From Streptobacillus ratti (GTDB lineage: Bacteria; Fusobacteriota; Fusobacteriia; Fusobacteriales; Leptotrichiaceae), in the NCBI RefSeq assembly GCF_001891165.1, contig NZ_LKKW01000015.1, positions 1 through 32,325 of the forward strand: a DNA stretch of 32,325 nucleotides, read 5' to 3'. Shown here in pieces: positions 1-17,830 of this stretch. Each line of letters opens with the position of its first letter. Positions within the stretch are counted from its first letter, which is position 1. The notes beneath the pieces were generated by a model. That model saw only the letters and a list, made by a program, of their open reading frames with translations, made no database searches and was not told the origin of the DNA. Both the position numbers and the translations under genes were made by a program.

Positions 1-34
1 AAATATTTTGTTACATATGTTTGACAACTAAACA
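1..34. mobile_element. Terminal end of an insertion sequence (left copy)
   Basis: Bases 1-34 are the exact reverse complement of 32061-32094, which is the end of a transposase-bearing insertion sequence at the right edge. The identity runs one base further (35/32060) and then stops. The outermost bases of the element read TG on the outgoing strand, as is usual for IS3/IS481-type ends. Only this tip is in the window, so it could be either end of the element and its orientation cannot be told. The insertion lies inside the reading frame of the outer-membrane protein gene at 1973. Confidence 0.8.
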
Positions 35-1973
35 ATTTAATTTTATTGTCATTCTTCTTTGCACTTGCTTTTACATCTATTCCAAATCTAGGTTTAATTG
101 ATAACTTATCATTTAAATATTTAAGTTGTACTTCTGCACTAGGAGATATTACTAATAATGATTGAGTATCCATACCAAAGTTTTTTTCTTCTTCATCTAT
201 TTTTCTTGAATCTTCTTTAGTAAAACCTTCAAATCCTTCTTCTCCAACCTGATTTCTCTTTATTCTATTTAAACTTTCATAAAGTCTTTCAGATTTCAAT
301 CCGTCTGAATAACTTGCAACTAGTTTTCCAGTTAAACCTATATTATCTTTTAATTGATATTTTAACTCATTTTCATTATATACTTTGTAAGCATATTGTG
401 TACTTAAATGTAACTTATTACCATTATTTTCTTTATAGTTAGTAAATAATGAGATAGTTTTTGCTCCTAATGTTGAACTAAAATCTGTCTTATTATTTAT
501 TTTATAATCTAATGTACCTTTAGTATCAGCTAATAATAGTATTTCATCAGTCTGTGAATCATGATTTAATATTGATAATCTATTTGAACTTGTAAAGTTT
601 AATTCTCCTTTTAATGTTAATTTATCATTAACCTTATAGTCTGCCTTATTATCACTCCATACATTTATTACACTAAATGTTTTATTATCTGCATAACCAA
701 CTATATATCTTCCATCTATACTATTTTTTGTTTCAACATTTTTAGTTTTTCTATCATATGTTATTCCAGCACCAATTGAAGCTAAATGTTCTAATCCATC
801 AAATTTAGCAGTATTCTTATCGTTTTTTATATTTACTATACCAGAATATTTTCCTACTCCTCTTACATCAAAGATTCCTAACTTGTAACTTAACATATTA
901 CCTGTATAGAACATTCCTATTTTAGGATCTTTTTTAGATTTATCATATTCAACTGCATTTAATTTTAAATCTTTAATTTCTATTCTTGATTTTAATTTAT
1001 TCTTCGATTCTATTTGTAATTTATCCTTATTATATTTAACCTCAAATTTTAATTCTGGTTTATATAATAATTCTTTAGGTGTTTGACCTTTTAATACTTT
1101 TTTAATTACAAATTCATTACCTATTCCACCTAATAATTCTAAGTTATTATTAACAGTATATTTAGCTTCATTCTCAATTGATATTGAGTAATCTTTTCCA
1201 CCTGGTACTATAGTTCCTAAATATATTTTACCTTTATTACGTATTTCTAATTTATCTAATGTACTTGTTGTCTTTAATTCTAATTTTAATCTTCCATAAT
1301 TCTTATATGTATCTTTTTTTAATTTATGATTTAAATCAACATCTATTTCATGATTATCTTTCTTAGTCTTTACATTTACAAAACTTTCTACTCTAAAATC
1401 ACCCTTTTGTAAATATCCTGCTGTATATATACTTCCAGTATGTAATTTAAAAAGTTTATGATTATAGTTTACTATACCTGAAAATAGAGTTTCTTCTCCT
1501 TTAAATCTTAATCCTTGACTATGGTAATAATCTTTTAAAGCTTCTTCATCATATTCAAATTTTTTATCCCATTCTCCTCTACTTTTTAGTAAATGTTTTA
1601 TAGAATTTTCATATCCACCCTCATTTTTTTCATCATAATTGTAAGCTGCATTTAATATTAATTCTATTTCATTTGTAAGTGATTTTTTAAGATTTAATCC
1701 AAAATATCCTTTAGGAATTAAAGTTCCATCTCCACCTTTTCCATTTAATGCTTTAGAACCCTCTAATTTTACTCCACCAAAAGTGAATACTTCTTTATTT
1801 TTCCCAAATATCGCTCCTAAATTTATATCATTCGATGCTTTTATTTTTGTAGTACTAGTATTATTGTCTTTTGAATGCTCTAATCCTAAATTAGTATCAT
1901 TGTTTACATAGTATTCTGCACCAAAAACACTAGCACTTATAGTCATCAATCCAATAAGTTTATTTCTAAACAT
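1..1973 (-). pseudogene. Large outer-membrane beta-barrel protein, 3' end interrupted by an IS end
   Basis: This reading frame starts at the ATG at 1971-1973, behind a strong AGGAGG ribosome binding site (about 1978-1985), and stays open off the left edge for 657 codons. The first 19 residues look like a signal peptide (basic start, hydrophobic core, cleavage after VFGA). The rest alternates polar and hydrophobic residues with many Asn, Lys, Tyr and Gly, as in big fusobacterial outer-membrane barrels; I recognise no named family. About 646 residues are native. From base 35 downwards the frame reads into an insertion-sequence end, adding foreign residues (LFSCQTYVTKY) in place of the natural C-terminus. 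Because the C-terminal strand normally carries the BAM recognition signal, the product is probably misassembled. The gene has its own promoter with a nine-G spacer. If the left join is an assembly artefact, the gene may be intact in the organism. Confidence 0.8.
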
Positions 1974-2046
1974 ATTTTCCTCCTTGTTTTCTAACAAATT
2001 ATGTGTTATTAATTTATATGTCATGTGATAAATTACAGACATAGCA

Positions 2047-2076
2047 ATTATACCCCCCCCCTTAATACTTTGTCAA
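2047..2076 (-). promoter_or_regulatory. Promoter with nine-G homopolymer in the -35/-10 spacer
   Basis: On the minus strand a perfect -35 TTGACA (2071-2076) and a perfect -10 TATAAT (2047-2052) are 18 bases apart. The spacer contains nine consecutive G (C at 2053-2061 on the plus strand). The start of transcription would be near 2040, leaving a leader of about 66 bases before the ATG at 1973. A 6-bp inverted repeat (TATGTC/GACATA, 2017-2022 and 2038-2043) lies at the start of that leader and could be a hairpin or an operator. Length change in such a tract alters spacer length and so promoter strength, as known for Neisseria porA. Confidence 0.8.
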
Positions 2077-2162
2077 TCATTTTATAAATATTCATAATAT
2101 TTTTTTATCATTTGTAAAACATTTTATTATTAATGTATATTATTTGCTTGCTTTTTTAAAAT

Positions 2163-2189
2163 AAAAAAATACTGAATAAATTCAGTATT
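2163..2189 (-). terminator. Rho-independent terminator of the glycosyltransferase unit
   Basis: A perfect 9-bp stem (AATACTGAA 2168-2176 with TTCAGTATT 2181-2189) has a 4-base loop. On the minus strand a run of T (A at 2163-2169) follows it. It begins directly after the stop codon of the gene at 2190. Confidence 0.85.
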
Positions 2190-3494
2190 CTATATTTTAT
2201 TTTCTCTAATTATATTTAAAGTAGATTTATCAATCTTATTATTTATCTTCAATTCTAACTTATTAAATAACTCTTTACTAACCCTATAACTTCTATTTCT
2301 CACATAAACTTTAAAGCTTCCGTCTTTATTTAATTTTATTTTTTGTATTCTGTATATCTTACCTAAATTATTTTTATAAATATCTTCTACTTTTTTGATA
2401 AATAGTGTTAAGTCATATTTTTCTGATATTTCTATAGATTTATTACTCATTGATTTTCTCTTATCTGAATCTAAAGAATAAAATATATCTATTTTCTCAT
2501 TTAATTCTTCTATACTTTCAAAAAAATATCCATTTTCATTTTCAAATAATAAGTCTTTAAGAACAACTCTATCACTACAGAATAAAATTTTACCTGTAGA
2601 CATAGCTTCTATAAAAGTAAGTCCTTGAGTTTCTGAAGTACTTGCAGAAATAAAGGCATCAGCTAAGCTATAGTAATCTGGAACTTCATGATATTCTTTT
2701 TTACCACAGAATATTATATTTTCTAAATCATATTTTTCTTTAAAATATTTAAGTTCTGGTCCCTCTCCTACTACAAGTAATATGATATCTTTCCTATTTT
2801 TTATTGTTTCTAATATTATTTCAATATTTTTTTCCTTAGCTACTCTTCCTAAATACATCAAAACCTTTTTACCTTTTAAATCAAATTCTTCTCTTAATTT
2901 TTCAATATTTGCTTGATTAGGGTTTTTGAATATATTAAGATCAATACCAGATGGCAATACTCTTACATCTGTATTTTTTATAGCATATTTCATTAAAACA
3001 TCATATGTCTTTTTAGACGGAACTATTACTGTATTTGCTGGATAACAATACATTTTAGAAATCATCTCAACAAATTTTACAAAAGGTTTATTTAATATAT
3101 CAATATTCATAAAATTAATATAGTGGACATAATCTTCTAACATAGTATGATAAGTGTATACCAATGGAATACCAAGCGTTTTAGCAAGTATTCTTCCTAA
3201 AATAGCAGTACCAAATTCTGTATGTATGTGTATTATATCTAATTTCAATTTTCTTATTTCATTAAAAGCTGAAAAATGAAAAGGACCAGTAACTGAATAG
3301 TTATAAAAATCCTTTAATAGGAAAGATGGTAATTTTATTACCTTGTCTTCAACACTTAATTTCATACTATTATTACATGTAATTACATAAACATCATGAC
3401 CTAATTCTTCTAATCCTTTTTTCAATGTATGAACACAAACTGCAACTCCATTTGCATGAGGTAAGTATGTGTCTGAAAATAAACCAATTTTCAT
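2190..3494 (-). CDS. GT4-family glycosyltransferase, 1,2-diacylglycerol 3-glucosyltransferase-like
   Basis: This is a 434-residue GT-B fold enzyme. The N-terminal Rossmann domain opens with MKIGLFSDTYLPHANGV, which forms the acceptor-side glycine loop. It is followed by HIHTEF (about 89-94) and YTYHTMLEDYVHYI (about 113-126), which resemble bacterial enzymes that glucosylate diacylglycerol (LafA/alMGS type). The C-terminal donor domain has PSGID (181-185), LGRVAKEKN (215-223), GEGPE (243-247) and SETQGLTFIEAM (287-298), including the EX7E-type nucleotide-sugar site. About 60 extra residues follow the usual end of the family. It would act at the inner face of the cytoplasmic membrane to make a glycolipid from a nucleotide sugar. 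The start is set by AGAGGA upstream. It is last in the mtnN unit and followed by a terminator. The family is secure; the acceptor is inferred. Confidence 0.85.
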   Translation of the reverse strand: MKIGLFSDTYLPHANGVAVCVHTLKKGLEELGHDVYVITCNNSMKLSVEDKVIKLPSFLLKDFYNYSVTGPFHFSAFNEIRKLKLDIIHIHTEFGTAILGRILAKTLGIPLVYTYHTMLEDYVHYINFMNIDILNKPFVKFVEMISKMYCYPANTVIVPSKKTYDVLMKYAIKNTDVRVLPSGIDLNIFKNPNQANIEKLREEFDLKGKKVLMYLGRVAKEKNIEIILETIKNRKDIILLVVGEGPELKYFKEKYDLENIIFCGKKEYHEVPDYYSLADAFISASTSETQGLTFIEAMSTGKILFCSDRVVLKDLLFENENGYFFESIEELNEKIDIFYSLDSDKRKSMSNKSIEISEKYDLTLFIKKVEDIYKNNLGKIYRIQKIKLNKDGSFKVYVRNRSYRVSKELFNKLELKINNKIDKSTLNIIRENKI

Positions 3495-3497
3495 ATT

Positions 3498-3635
3498 TTA
3501 ATCCTCTTTCTCTAATTCTACAATTCTGAATTTAATATAATCTTCAAATGATAAAATCTCACAACCACAAACTAATTCATTTTCTTTTTCATATTCTTCT
3601 AGTAATTTTTGATAAATATCTTTATTGATTTTCAT
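3498..3635 (-). CDS. Small hypothetical protein (45 residues)
   Basis: This short frame fills the gap between the genes at 3622 and 3494. It encodes a charged, mostly helical 45-residue protein starting MKINKDIYQK, with a Cys-Gly-Cys pair near the middle and an acidic end (ELEKED). It overlaps the 3' end of the upstream gene by 14 bases and its stop codon lies three bases before the next ATG, an arrangement typical of coupled translation. An in-frame ATG at 3647 would add four residues. The ribosome binding site is weak (GGTAAAG). I do not recognise it. The fit into the operon and absence of other coding content support it being real. Confidence 0.55.
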   Translation of the reverse strand: MKINKDIYQKLLEEYEKENELVCGCEILSFEDYIKFRIVELEKED

Positions 3636-4011
3636 TTTCTTTACCATTATTTTTATTCTCAATGTGTTGTTTTATTATTTTATCAACTTCTTTATCTGTT
3701 TCACTTTTATTTTCTTCATTAACATTTTCATCTGTTTCATTTTTGTTTTCTTCATTAACATTATTTTCTTCGACTTTTTCTTGTTTTTGTTCTTCATTAA
3801 CATTATTTTCTTCGACTTTTTCTTGTTTTTGTTCTTCATTAACATTATTTTCATAAAATCCACTTTTTCTAATACTAAAATCTTGTAATATTAAATTTGT
3901 ATTATTATATGCAGATTTTCTAATATATTTTATTTTAGAATATGTATAAAATACTCCTAAAAAAAATATTATCCAAAATATTATTCTTAAAATTTTTATT
4001 AATCTTCTCAT
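3622..4011 (-). CDS. Single-pass membrane protein with acidic tandem-repeat tail
   Basis: This 129-residue protein has a basic start (MRRLIKILR) and one hydrophobic segment at about residues 8-24. A long hydrophilic tail rich in Glu, Asn and Lys follows. The tail holds two identical 14-residue repeats (ENNVNEEQKQEKVE), the start of a third, and two diverged units (NVNEENKNETDE, NVNEENKSETDK). The tail probably lies in the periplasm or cytoplasm as an extended, disordered region; topology cannot be decided. The start codon has AGGTGG four bases upstream. It sits 8 bases after mtnN and overlaps the small ORF that follows. I recognise no family, and the composition resembles low-complexity surface or scaffold proteins rather than an enzyme. 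Confidence 0.75.
   Translation of the reverse strand: MRRLIKILRIIFWIIFFLGVFYTYSKIKYIRKSAYNNTNLILQDFSIRKSGFYENNVNEEQKQEKVEENNVNEEQKQEKVEENNVNEENKNETDENVNEENKSETDKEVDKIIKQHIENKNNGKENENQ
3748..3852. repeat. 42-bp tandem repeat, 2.5 perfect copies
   Basis: Bases 3748-3789 and 3790-3831 are identical 42-base units, and 3832-3852 repeats the first 21 bases. The unit is a multiple of three, so changes in copy number keep the frame of the membrane protein at 3622-4011 and alter only the length of its acidic tail. Perfect identity at DNA level, next to diverged units downstream, suggests recent duplication. Confidence 0.9.
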
Positions 4012-13855: not shown

Positions 13856-16800
13856 TTACCATCTATATTCAAGTCCTGTTTTAACATTAAATTTAGTACC
13901 CTTAAAATCTTTATTTTCAAAACCAAATGGCATCTCTGCACTAAGTCTTGCATTTAAGTTACTAATTAAGTTGTATTTCATCTTTATTTCTGGACTTAAA
14001 GTGTTTTTAAATATCATCTTTCTACTTCCAAATAACTTAATATCTTCTAATATTATCTTATTACTTGAAATATATTCTGCATTTAAATTATACTTCATTC
14101 CAAGTGATACTGTCATTTTTTCATTATATCTAAAATTATACCCTAAATATGTATCTAAATTTGCATCTATTTTCTTTGTACGTAAAAAATGTGTTTCTTC
14201 TGATTTATTTTCCTTTTTTATCCTATTTGGATAATCTAATATTTCTTTTAGTTTTTCTTCATTAATTTTAGGATATATACCTAAAGTACTATCTTTTTCA
14301 TATATTGTATCATCATATGATTTTTTATTCTTAACATATTTTTTTAATGATTCTAGTATATTTTTTTCATCTATATCAACAACTTCATGATTTTGTTCTA
14401 CATGTTCTAAAATTTTAAGTGGATCTTTTGCTTTTGAAGTATGGCTAACAACTTTTGATTTTGTTTCAGTTGTTGTAGTAATTTCTTTTAATCCTCTTAA
14501 TCTAGTTTCATTGTATACTATCCCTAAATTTAAATCAAAATTAATACCCTTATCCTGTCTATATTCTGTATCAATCTCAAAGTTATATATTTGATTATCT
14601 AAAAATATACTATTTTTCGTTTCCTTAGTTATTTTTTGTGATTTTTTATCAAAGAAATAATTATATGATTTATTACCAAACCAACCATTTATATGATAAT
14701 TCCATGCAAAATAACTAAGAGGTAAGTCTACGAAGTTGCCCTCTTCAACATTTTTCTTTTCTGTATATCCTGTTCTTTTAACTGAATCAGCCTTAGCCCT
14801 TATCCTAAAGTTACCCTCTTCCTTTTTGATGTCTATAAAAGGTGTTAATGTATAATCTAATTCTCCTTTAAATAATAAATTAGGTAACTTCTCTTTAACT
14901 TTATTATACTCCTTATTATTTCTATCCTTTAATATACTTAATATATTAGGCTTTAATTCTTGTTCTACTATATCCTTACTCGATTTTAATACTTTCCTAA
15001 ATCCTAATATAGTTGAAAATTCTGTCCCCTTTGTATATTCAAGCCCTACCTTTGTCGATATCTCTTCTTTATCCTTAGCAATTATCAATCTTGGTTTAAC
15101 TTGAAAATTTACTATTAATGGATTTAATGATAAGCTAAAGTCTATATTCTTATCATTCCCTCTTACATCTCCTCTTAAGAAAGTTAAATCTGCCATCGCT
15201 CTATATGATAAATAATAACCTGGGTCATTCCCTAATACTCCTCCAGCTTCTATATCTCCCATACTCTTAAACTTAATTGGATTTAATTTAGTAAATATTA
15301 CATCTTTAAAACTATCATCTATTAAATATTTTATCTCCCCTGTATATATTCCTCTTATACCAGCAGGTGATGAATTCCTAATACTTATCGGTAATTCTAA
15401 ATGACTACTAAATAATATATTATCATAGGGTCTGTATAATAAGGTTAATCTTGGTGATAATATATTATACATCTCATATGATGATTTTACTGCTTTGCCT
15501 TTCTCTGTTTGTATATAGTCTGATTGATGTATATCTCTTTTTAGTTTCTTCTCATTACCTGTCATTAATGCTTCTTTATCAACCAATTCTTTTTCTGTTG
15601 TTTGTGATGTTATTATAGACTTATTATCTTTACCTATAGGGTTATTGTCTTTATCTCTCTTAGCTATATCAAACTCTACTTCTTTCCCATTCTTATCTAA
15701 ACTCTTTCTTAGGTCTATCCAACCATATATTCCTATATGTCTTAATCCTAATAAGACATTTAGTTTATCATTTGTAGGTATATTAAGTCCTAAATATGTA
15801 TCTGTATTTAAACTTGTTGTATCATATACATGTTTTTCTTGATTGTCTTTTCTATATAAATAGTTTTTAGATACATTTAATAATAGTTTTGTATTAAATT
15901 CTATTATTCCCTCTTTATATGTTCCAGTTACTCCTAAATTATTTGATTTTTTAACATATCCATATTTTTCTGCATTAACATTTACATTATCATTTAATAA
16001 TAGTTCTACTCCTAGTTTATAGTTTCTTCCTATATGTCCTGCATTTAATTTTAATTTAGTTGAGTATTCTGCTTTGTTTTCTTTTAAGTTTACATCAGCA
16101 AAGTTTGCTCTTAATATGTCTTCATATTTTAGTATGTTTCTTTCTTTTTCACTTTGATGTAGATATAGTCCTCTTAATATGTCAAGACCTTTCATTTCAT
16201 ATGGGTTCTTTATTAATTCTTGTATCTTTGGTAATTTATCTATTATTTTACTAATCTTATCACCTAAGAAAAAATCTCCTAATATTCCCAAAATACTTGA
16301 TCCAGCAATCGCTTTAATTTTATCTAGTTCATATTCTCTAGTTATTTCATCAATTAAATATTTTTTAGCATCTGAATCAAAATCATGCCATCTTTCTTCA
16401 AATTTATATTTATTTTGAGATGAAGATCTACTTTGAGCTAGAACTCTATTCATACTTAATGAGCTAGGTAATACTGGAGTTTTAAGTCCGTCATATAAAT
16501 AATTTGGATCTAATTCTTCTCCTTTAATTTTAGAATAATCAAAATCTTTATAGTATCCCGGTAAAAGATGTTGAAAATCACTTGGTATTTGTGTCCAAGC
16601 TCCTATAGTCGAATATTTTCTATCAAGTCCTAATCCTAATCTTTTATAAAGTTTTTGGGCAATTCTATTAGCCATATCATTAAGTCCTTTAGCATTCTTA
16701 ACCTCTTTACTTAATCCTATACCCGGTGCAATAAAAGATGTAGCTGTAGGCTTTTCTTCTTTTTCAAGTATTTTTGTTAAATCTGAAAGATTTCTAAAAT

Positions 16801-17830
16801 TTTTATTTGAATGTATCTCATCAAACAAAGTCTTAGTTACATACCTAATTGGAGAATCTCCATAAAGCGAACCTGAATAATGTCCAAGTATTCTACTTGT
16901 CCCCTTAAATCCAGATACTTCTGCCTTTTCTAAGTCTGCATGTTCATTCTCATACTCATCTTTGCTAATTTCTGGCTTAAGTTCTTTATACTTATCCTTT
17001 AATGTCCACTTCTTAAAATACTCTACCTTATCATAACCAGGTGCCGTATATTTAATCTTATCTAACTCATCTGTTAAATCATATGACCTCTTATAATTAT
17101 TAAATAAGACTGAAGCACTAACATAACTACCACCATTTTTATACACAACTGTTGGTCCTATATTTATACTCTTATCTTGTCCTGCAAAATATAGGGATAA
17201 AGATAAATTCCTATCAGGTGTTGGATTAACTCTAAAGTTATAATCAACTACCTTATTCTTTAAAGGCTTTTCATCATCTATTTTGTCTATGTCTACTTTC
17301 TCTTTACTTTCTCCCTTAACATAATAGTTAATCTCTCCATTAACATACTTATTATCAGAAGTTAATGTTAGTTTTATTTTATCTATCTCATTATCTCCTA
17401 AAAATTTTGTATGTGTAATCTTTTTACCAAATATATCTGCCTTTATTCCTAAACCTATATAGTTCTCTTTTAATTTAACACTTAATTTCTTTCTTAATTC
17501 TACATTCCTTGATAAATACTTTCCAGCTAACTCTATATCTCTAGCTGTTGGATTGTATTTTGGAATATATAAATCAAGATCTTGATTAGGCTTAGGATTG
17601 GGACTAGGTTGAGTGTTCCCACCATTATTATTTTCTTTTTCATAATCTTTATATTTTTTTGCTCTAAATAAATCCACTACTTGAGGTATTAATTTACTTA
17701 CATTCTCTAGTCCATCAACACCAAAAGTTGCATCAACACCGAAAGTTACCTCTCCACTTATTTTACTTTTTTCTTCTGAGTATGCAAGTGAAGATAATAG
17801 TAGTAAAAATAATATCTTTTTTTGTTTCAT
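13856..17830 (-). CDS. Giant outer-membrane beta-barrel protein (1324 residues)
   Basis: This is a secreted protein with a signal peptide (MKQKKILFLLLLSSLAYS) and a short region of two near-repeats (TFGVDATFGVDG, about 29-40). A Pro/Asn-rich linker (about 72-88) and a very long region of alternating polar and hydrophobic residues follow. The last residue is Trp in GLEYRW, the aromatic end that BAM recognises. Repeated strand-turn-strand patterns up to the end suggest a large barrel or several beta modules, perhaps a porin-like or adhesin protein. I see no passenger, TonB box or enzyme motif, and no named family. Nothing but the general style links it with the barrel at 1-1973. It has its own promoter and terminator, so it is a single-gene unit. 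Its start is unusual: the GGAGG ribosome site is 29 bases upstream, separated by a perfect hairpin that contains a five-codon mini-ORF. Confidence 0.88.
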   Translation of the reverse strand: MKQKKILFLLLLSSLAYSEEKSKISGEVTFGVDATFGVDGLENVSKLIPQVVDLFRAKKYKDYEKENNNGGNTQPSPNPKPNQDLDLYIPKYNPTARDIELAGKYLSRNVELRKKLSVKLKENYIGLGIKADIFGKKITHTKFLGDNEIDKIKLTLTSDNKYVNGEINYYVKGESKEKVDIDKIDDEKPLKNKVVDYNFRVNPTPDRNLSLSLYFAGQDKSINIGPTVVYKNGGSYVSASVLFNNYKRSYDLTDELDKIKYTAPGYDKVEYFKKWTLKDKYKELKPEISKDEYENEHADLEKAEVSGFKGTSRILGHYSGSLYGDSPIRYVTKTLFDEIHSNKNFRNLSDLTKILEKEEKPTATSFIAPGIGLSKEVKNAKGLNDMANRIAQKLYKRLGLGLDRKYSTIGAWTQIPSDFQHLLPGYYKDFDYSKIKGEELDPNYLYDGLKTPVLPSSLSMNRVLAQSRSSSQNKYKFEERWHDFDSDAKKYLIDEITREYELDKIKAIAGSSILGILGDFFLGDKISKIIDKLPKIQELIKNPYEMKGLDILRGLYLHQSEKERNILKYEDILRANFADVNLKENKAEYSTKLKLNAGHIGRNYKLGVELLLNDNVNVNAEKYGYVKKSNNLGVTGTYKEGIIEFNTKLLLNVSKNYLYRKDNQEKHVYDTTSLNTDTYLGLNIPTNDKLNVLLGLRHIGIYGWIDLRKSLDKNGKEVEFDIAKRDKDNNPIGKDNKSIITSQTTEKELVDKEALMTGNEKKLKRDIHQSDYIQTEKGKAVKSSYEMYNILSPRLTLLYRPYDNILFSSHLELPISIRNSSPAGIRGIYTGEIKYLIDDSFKDVIFTKLNPIKFKSMGDIEAGGVLGNDPGYYLSYRAMADLTFLRGDVRGNDKNIDFSLSLNPLIVNFQVKPRLIIAKDKEEISTKVGLEYTKGTEFSTILGFRKVLKSSKDIVEQELKPNILSILKDRNNKEYNKVKEKLPNLLFKGELDYTLTPFIDIKKEEGNFRIRAKADSVKRTGYTEKKNVEEGNFVDLPLSYFAWNYHINGWFGNKSYNYFFDKKSQKITKETKNSIFLDNQIYNFEIDTEYRQDKGINFDLNLGIVYNETRLRGLKEITTTTETKSKVVSHTSKAKDPLKILEHVEQNHEVVDIDEKNILESLKKYVKNKKSYDDTIYEKDSTLGIYPKINEEKLKEILDYPNRIKKENKSEETHFLRTKKIDANLDTYLGYNFRYNEKMTVSLGMKYNLNAEYISSNKIILEDIKLFGSRKMIFKNTLSPEIKMKYNLISNLNARLSAEMPFGFENKDFKGTKFNVKTGLEYRW

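Follow-up and report, generated by a model that had tools for sequence, protein, structure and literature searches.

The promoter element

The locus described here raises the question of why a long run of G should fill half the spacer of a perfect promoter in a genome with so little G and C. The window, meaning the whole stretch of 32,325 nucleotides of DNA from Streptobacillus ratti, a member of the Leptotrichiaceae within the Fusobacteriota, that was analyzed (contig NZ_LKKW01000015.1, contig 15 of a 1.43 Mb assembly, with the contig beginning at window base 1), has a G+C content of 24.6%. On its minus strand at 2076-2047 lies a promoter that matches the consensus at 12 of 12 positions, with a spacer of 18 bp that ends in nine consecutive G touching TATAAT, upstream of a gene for a predicted outer-membrane barrel protein. 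The data suggest that this element is a phase-variable promoter that would be switched by slippage altering the promoter spacing, and that it is one copy of a recurrent architecture, a reading to which a probability of roughly 0.87 is given. The parts of the element are as follows.

2071..2076, minus strand: -35 box TTGACA, perfect (read from the sequence)
2053..2070, minus strand: promoter spacer AAGTATTAAGGGGGGGGG, 18 bp (read from the sequence)
2053..2061, minus strand: nine-G tract with G on the coding strand, adjoining the -10 box, proposed site of slippage (from the sequence and from recurrence elsewhere)
2047..2052, minus strand: -10 box TATAAT, perfect (read from the sequence)

The original prediction had described perfect TTGACA and TATAAT boxes 18 bases apart, nine G within the spacer, a G+C content of about a quarter and no other run of this length in the window, and all of these were confirmed. 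The next longest run of G or C in the 32 kb is 5 bases, and a G run as long as this one is expected at most 0.006 times per window under order-0 to order-2 models. The homopolymer is located between the -35 and -10 boxes, as it is in promoters of the type known from Neisseria porA.

Recurrence in Streptobacillus and Fusobacteriales

The original prediction proposed a search of other genomes of the group for poly-G between promoter boxes. In that search the promoter reading held, and the site proved to be more than a single case: the element recurs in all four Streptobacillus genomes compared (S. ratti, which is the source of the window, S. moniliformis, S. notomytis and a fourth species, one genome each) and the window site is one of about 20 in its genome. 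These counts and the statistics that follow rest on pattern searches and fetched sequence stretches. Promoters with both boxes perfect and a poly-G spacer number 14 in the window's genome, 22 in S. moniliformis, 21 in S. notomytis and 5 in the fourth species, versus 0-2 per genome in 92 other Fusobacteriales genomes, and a backwards-read control pattern had no matches in the Fusobacteriales genomes searched.

When -10 boxes of TATAAT, TATACT or TCTAAT were accepted, 20 of the 20 runs of at least eight G in the window's genome were placed between TTGACA and a -10 box with the G on the coding strand. The same promoter criterion was satisfied by 35 of 200,000 random insertion points. A manual tally of tracts of at least eight G in the other genomes, with two S. 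notomytis sites added from the perfect-box search, put 36 of 40 in promoter position in S. moniliformis, 23 of 27 in S. notomytis and 2 of 2 in the fourth species. The poly-C version of the element was found in none of the four Streptobacillus genomes. Sister genera have a few such promoters, some of them before genes whose products begin with a long signal peptide of the kind found in trimeric autotransporters, and viral contigs gave four scattered pattern matches and nothing informative. Loss of mismatch repair was considered as a cause of the abundance of tracts and was rejected, as the mismatch-recognition domain of MutS was found in 4 of 4 Streptobacillus and 94 of 96 Fusobacteriales genomes.

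Genes behind poly-G promoters

The genes driven by these promoters include trimeric autotransporters with YadA head, stalk and anchor domains (from clustering of the first downstream open reading frames) and classical autotransporters (PF03797 with the autochaperone domain PF18883). Further families are about 180-230 amino acids long ending in GYTF, 480-490 amino acids long ending in GYNW, and 180 amino acids long and secreted, in addition to the barrel family of the window (650-690 amino acids, VEYRW endings). Signal-peptide-like starts were found in 16 of 20 poly-G genes of the window's genome versus 9 of 43 other open reading frames on the same stretches, and in S. moniliformis the corresponding counts were 29 of 31 and 33 of 118. 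The driven genes therefore share with those of porA-type promoters a surface-exposed or secreted product.

A different explanation for the recurrence is that duplication of promoters multiplied the tract as a side effect, with gene families spreading together with their promoter and the homopolymer carried along as neutral baggage. Some of the promoters do have TTGACAAAATAT-type starts in common, and the genes are paralogous within families. However, the tract is carried by several unrelated protein families, and the flanks of the barrel paralogs have diverged so far that the two boxes, the G tract and the leader are nearly all that their promoters still share. Additionally, neutral G runs should erode at 25% G+C, and the Streptobacillus genomes examined have hardly any long G runs outside promoters. 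Duplication alone is considered a very unlikely origin of the pattern.

Two observations concern the organization of these genes. At L259:1120-6430 and L290:30-5347, two related barrel genes follow each other with a short gap behind a poly-G promoter, and one switch may control both genes. At the S. moniliformis loci L248, L261, L263, L272 and L275, the genes behind poly-G promoters have shortened or altered frames relative to their relatives, as if silent copies decay.

Tract and spacer length

Eight orthologous promoters with near-identical downstream flanks were compared across species, and spacer length differs in six of them. One pair has spacers of 20 and 18 (G11 and G9) with 1 mismatch in 306 bp downstream, others have 19 versus 18, 18 versus 19, 17 versus 19 and 19 versus 20, and one group has 16, 17 and 20, the last length being due to a TGT insertion beside the tract. 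Among these six, tract lengths also differ as G11 versus G10 and as G10 versus G11. Thus, the difference in tract length between genomes that is characteristic of porA-type promoters is found at sister promoters of the window element.

Homopolymers are error-prone in 454 and draft assemblies, which raises the concern that the tract or its length is an assembly artefact. Nevertheless, the same architecture is present in four separate genomes, one of them finished with Sanger reads, and sequencing error cannot produce placement in promoters. The finished genome is that of S. moniliformis, for which Sanger and 454 reads were combined and fewer than 1 error per 100,000 is stated (PMC3035246). An artefact is hardly credible as an explanation of the element.

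The distribution of spacer lengths also sets these promoters apart. Ordinary perfect promoters of the genus have a spacer of 17 in 72 of 142 cases and of 19 in 0 of 142 (among the matches listed), whereas intact poly-G promoters have spacers of 15-21 with a mode at 19 (23 of 52) and only 12 of 52 at 16-17 (Fisher P=3.5e-8). Interrupted G-rich promoters, a small set of nine of which some are only loosely G-rich, all have spacers of 16-18, with 17 in 5 of 9 (P=0.003 versus intact poly-G), and several of them precede the same gene families as the intact ones. This looks like locking at a working length after slippage stops. The original prediction held that loss of one G would bring the spacer to an optimum of 17, but in a G-filled spacer the optimum may differ from 17 bp, since 19 is the length that poly-G promoters have most often. 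If 17 were optimal, the window promoter at 18 would be intermediate. Since 19 is the commonest length, seen for instance in 14 of 22 perfect-box tracts of the S. moniliformis assembly, either most sites were off in the sequenced cultures or the optimum of a G-filled spacer is longer, at 18-19.

The second of these options is related to another explanation, namely that the G tract is a fixed regulatory element that marks an adhesin regulon, through binding of a regulator or a special spacer shape, and that changes in its length are incidental. The strict strand and position beside the -10 box would fit such an element, and a spacer of 19 could be the true optimum if G-filled DNA has a shorter rise per base pair. 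However, both the tract and the spacer differ widely in length, within a species as well as from one species to another, the interrupted versions settle at 16-18 as ordinary promoters do, and a binding site has no need of an uninterrupted homopolymer. A fixed element is considered unlikely, though less so than duplication or artefact.

The tracts are pure homopolymers of G8-G13, some with adjacent GT repeats. Near 3982 of L242, 17516 of L305 and 3994 of L244, GT repeats by the G tract differ between orthologs (CGGGG versus CGTGTGGGG), and such repeats are a second way of altering spacer length.

Proposed switching mechanism

The phase-variable promoter reading of the original prediction is supported by the genus-wide recurrence, the ortholog length differences and the spacer statistics. 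In the model proposed here, slipped-strand mispairing during replication would add or remove G in the tract beside the -10 box. The resulting change in the distance between the -35 and -10 boxes would determine whether RNA polymerase with σ70 transcribes the barrel gene at a high level, at a low level or not at all. The shared architecture consists of TTGACA, 6-10 variable bases, G8-G13 on the coding strand, and TATAAT or TATACT, and it is present at about 20 loci here and at 20-36 in two close relatives. Many autotransporter and barrel genes could in this way be switched independently of each other, which would give a combinatorial surface repertoire and make this architecture the main one in an adhesin phasome common to the genus. 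The architecture, its recurrence, the gene class, the strand bias, the ortholog length differences and the spacer statistics are direct observations. From these we infer slippage within a culture and an effect of tract length on transcription.

Several points weigh against this model. The promoter boxes, and with them the transcription starts, are assigned from the sequence. With MutS present, there is no sign that slippage is more frequent across the genome as a whole. Two of the eight ortholog groups have identical spacers, some of the eight match in the downstream flank only, and the locus in the window itself lacks a flank-matched ortholog. The comparison of tract lengths is one between species, with one assembled genome each, and miscalled homopolymers could account for part of the single-base differences between draft assemblies.

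Comparison with known systems

In Neisseria, fetA is a case of a promoter homopolymer, and the tract of opc consists of C on the coding strand, an orientation that is absent in Streptobacillus. A close likeness in that genus is porA, where poly-G lies between the -35 and -10 boxes of an outer-membrane protein gene and its length sets expression. In N. meningitidis, 11G gives high porA expression, 10G about 2-fold less and 9G about 13-fold less (PMC3639595); the mechanism is credited to van der Ende 1995, as cited in PMC5084427. However, this concerns one gene in Neisseria, where most other switches use other repeats, whereas Streptobacillus, a member of another phylum, has one architecture for about 20 loci and several protein families.

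Two other systems use promoter homopolymers more broadly. According to PMC10502178, which cites Citti and Wise 1995, every member of the vlp surface lipoprotein family of Mycoplasma hyorhinis switches via a homopolymer A tract in the promoter region, but this is poly-A, one gene family and a wall-less bacterium. In Treponema pallidum, the tpr genes and TP0126 are outer-membrane protein genes described as having variable poly-G near the promoter, with length modulating transcription (PMC10118025, citing Giacani 2007). As described there, those tracts differ in lying upstream of the transcription start or promoter, in the involvement of a CRP-type regulator and in the smaller number of gene families. 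The mechanism itself is thus known. Serving a large part of an adhesin repertoire with a single promoter architecture resembles the vlp and tpr cases closely but extends over more gene families.

The original prediction knew of no description of this mechanism for this group of bacteria, and that is still the case: no report of such switching in Streptobacillus or Fusobacteriota was found in the searchable literature, with many subscription papers outside reach. Literature on phase variation, homopolymers, autotransporters and adhesins in Streptobacillus, Sneathia and Fusobacteria likewise yielded nothing relevant. Streptobacillus causes rat-bite fever, and haemagglutination work concluded that it must have adhesins, with none identified there (PMC4529157). 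The genes behind the poly-G promoters are candidates for such a set of adhesins. If the proposed model is true, a single strain would change its surface randomly, with consequences for serology and for comparisons between strains, and sequencing reads would show the switch states directly.

Beyond the genus

A scan of 84,980 genomes for perfect promoters with at least eight G in the spacer found them, among the matches listed, in Clostridia, Bacilli, Saccharibacteria, Candidatus Ancillula and others. Outside Fusobacteriota (L090-L169), 41 of 51 downstream genes among the matches listed have a signal-peptide-like start. The share is far lower in the two comparison groups, at 45 of 224 for leader genes without a poly-G promoter (P=7e-16) and 9 of 51 for genes on the same stretches that follow an ordinary strong promoter (P=2e-10). 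The signal-peptide predictor is crude and counts N-terminal membrane helices too; nonetheless, the effect is large. This suggests repeated, independent use of a poly-G promoter switch across phyla. On balance, we lean toward the view that consensus boxes around a G-filled spacer make up a general and repeatedly evolved switch of secreted and surface proteins, which would form a whole-genome adhesin phasome in Streptobacillus and be present, though unrecognized, in many uncultured gut Clostridia, Bacilli and Saccharibacteria. In uncultured bacteria, the poly-G promoter can serve as a sequence signature by which phase-variable surface genes are located. Several genomes have more than one such promoter, among them Candidatus Ancillula and rabbit-gut Clostridia and Bacilli.

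The barrel gene and its neighbors

The features downstream and upstream of the window promoter are as follows.

3..1973, minus strand: outer-membrane beta-barrel protein, 657 amino acids visible, signal peptide MFRNKLIGLMTISASVFGA (from the signal peptide, relatives, predicted structure and Foldseek)
1976..1986, minus strand: ribosome-binding site region AAGGAGGAAAA, ahead of the ATG at 1973 (read from the sequence)
2160..2190, minus strand: terminator-like hairpin and T run, ATACTGAA TTTA TTCAGTAT TTTTTTT (read from the sequence)
2190..3494, minus strand: glycosyltransferase (families 4 and 1), upstream neighbor, outside the switch (from family search)

A start of the barrel gene at 2042, given in a mechanical list of open reading frames, was rejected as AAGGAGG precedes the start codon at 1973, and the latter start leaves a 5' leader of roughly 65-70 nucleotides. 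The gene runs off the contig end, so that the C-terminus is cut. A Pfam search with the window protein gave no family above the cut-off. It has 15 aligned relatives in the genus, most with VEYRW-like C-terminal motifs, and its AlphaFold model has about 27 strands (mean pLDDT 80, pTM 0.68). The best Foldseek matches were large outer-membrane barrels, among them LptD, the Mtr complex and TonB-dependent receptors, although the TM-scores were low at about 0.24-0.43. The product is predicted to be a large outer-membrane barrel, and the secreted barrel that the original prediction had placed behind the promoter is borne out by the signal peptide, the model, the VEYRW paralogues and the outer-membrane barrels matched by Foldseek.

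The hairpin at 2160..2190 sits between the barrel gene and the upstream glycosyltransferase gene and is absent from the list of a G+C-based scan. With its T run it appears to close off the glycosyltransferase gene, which suggests that the barrel gene is transcribed as a unit of its own.

Elsewhere in the window, a second very large signal-peptide protein (13856-17830, minus strand, 1324 amino acids) ends in EYRW, and it has no Pfam family above the cut-off and no poly-G promoter. At 3694-3852, tandem units of 42 bp and 36 bp lie inside the gene for a 129-amino-acid membrane protein (3622-4011, minus strand); these units encode repeated NNVNEEQKQEKVEE segments, and their copy number could vary.
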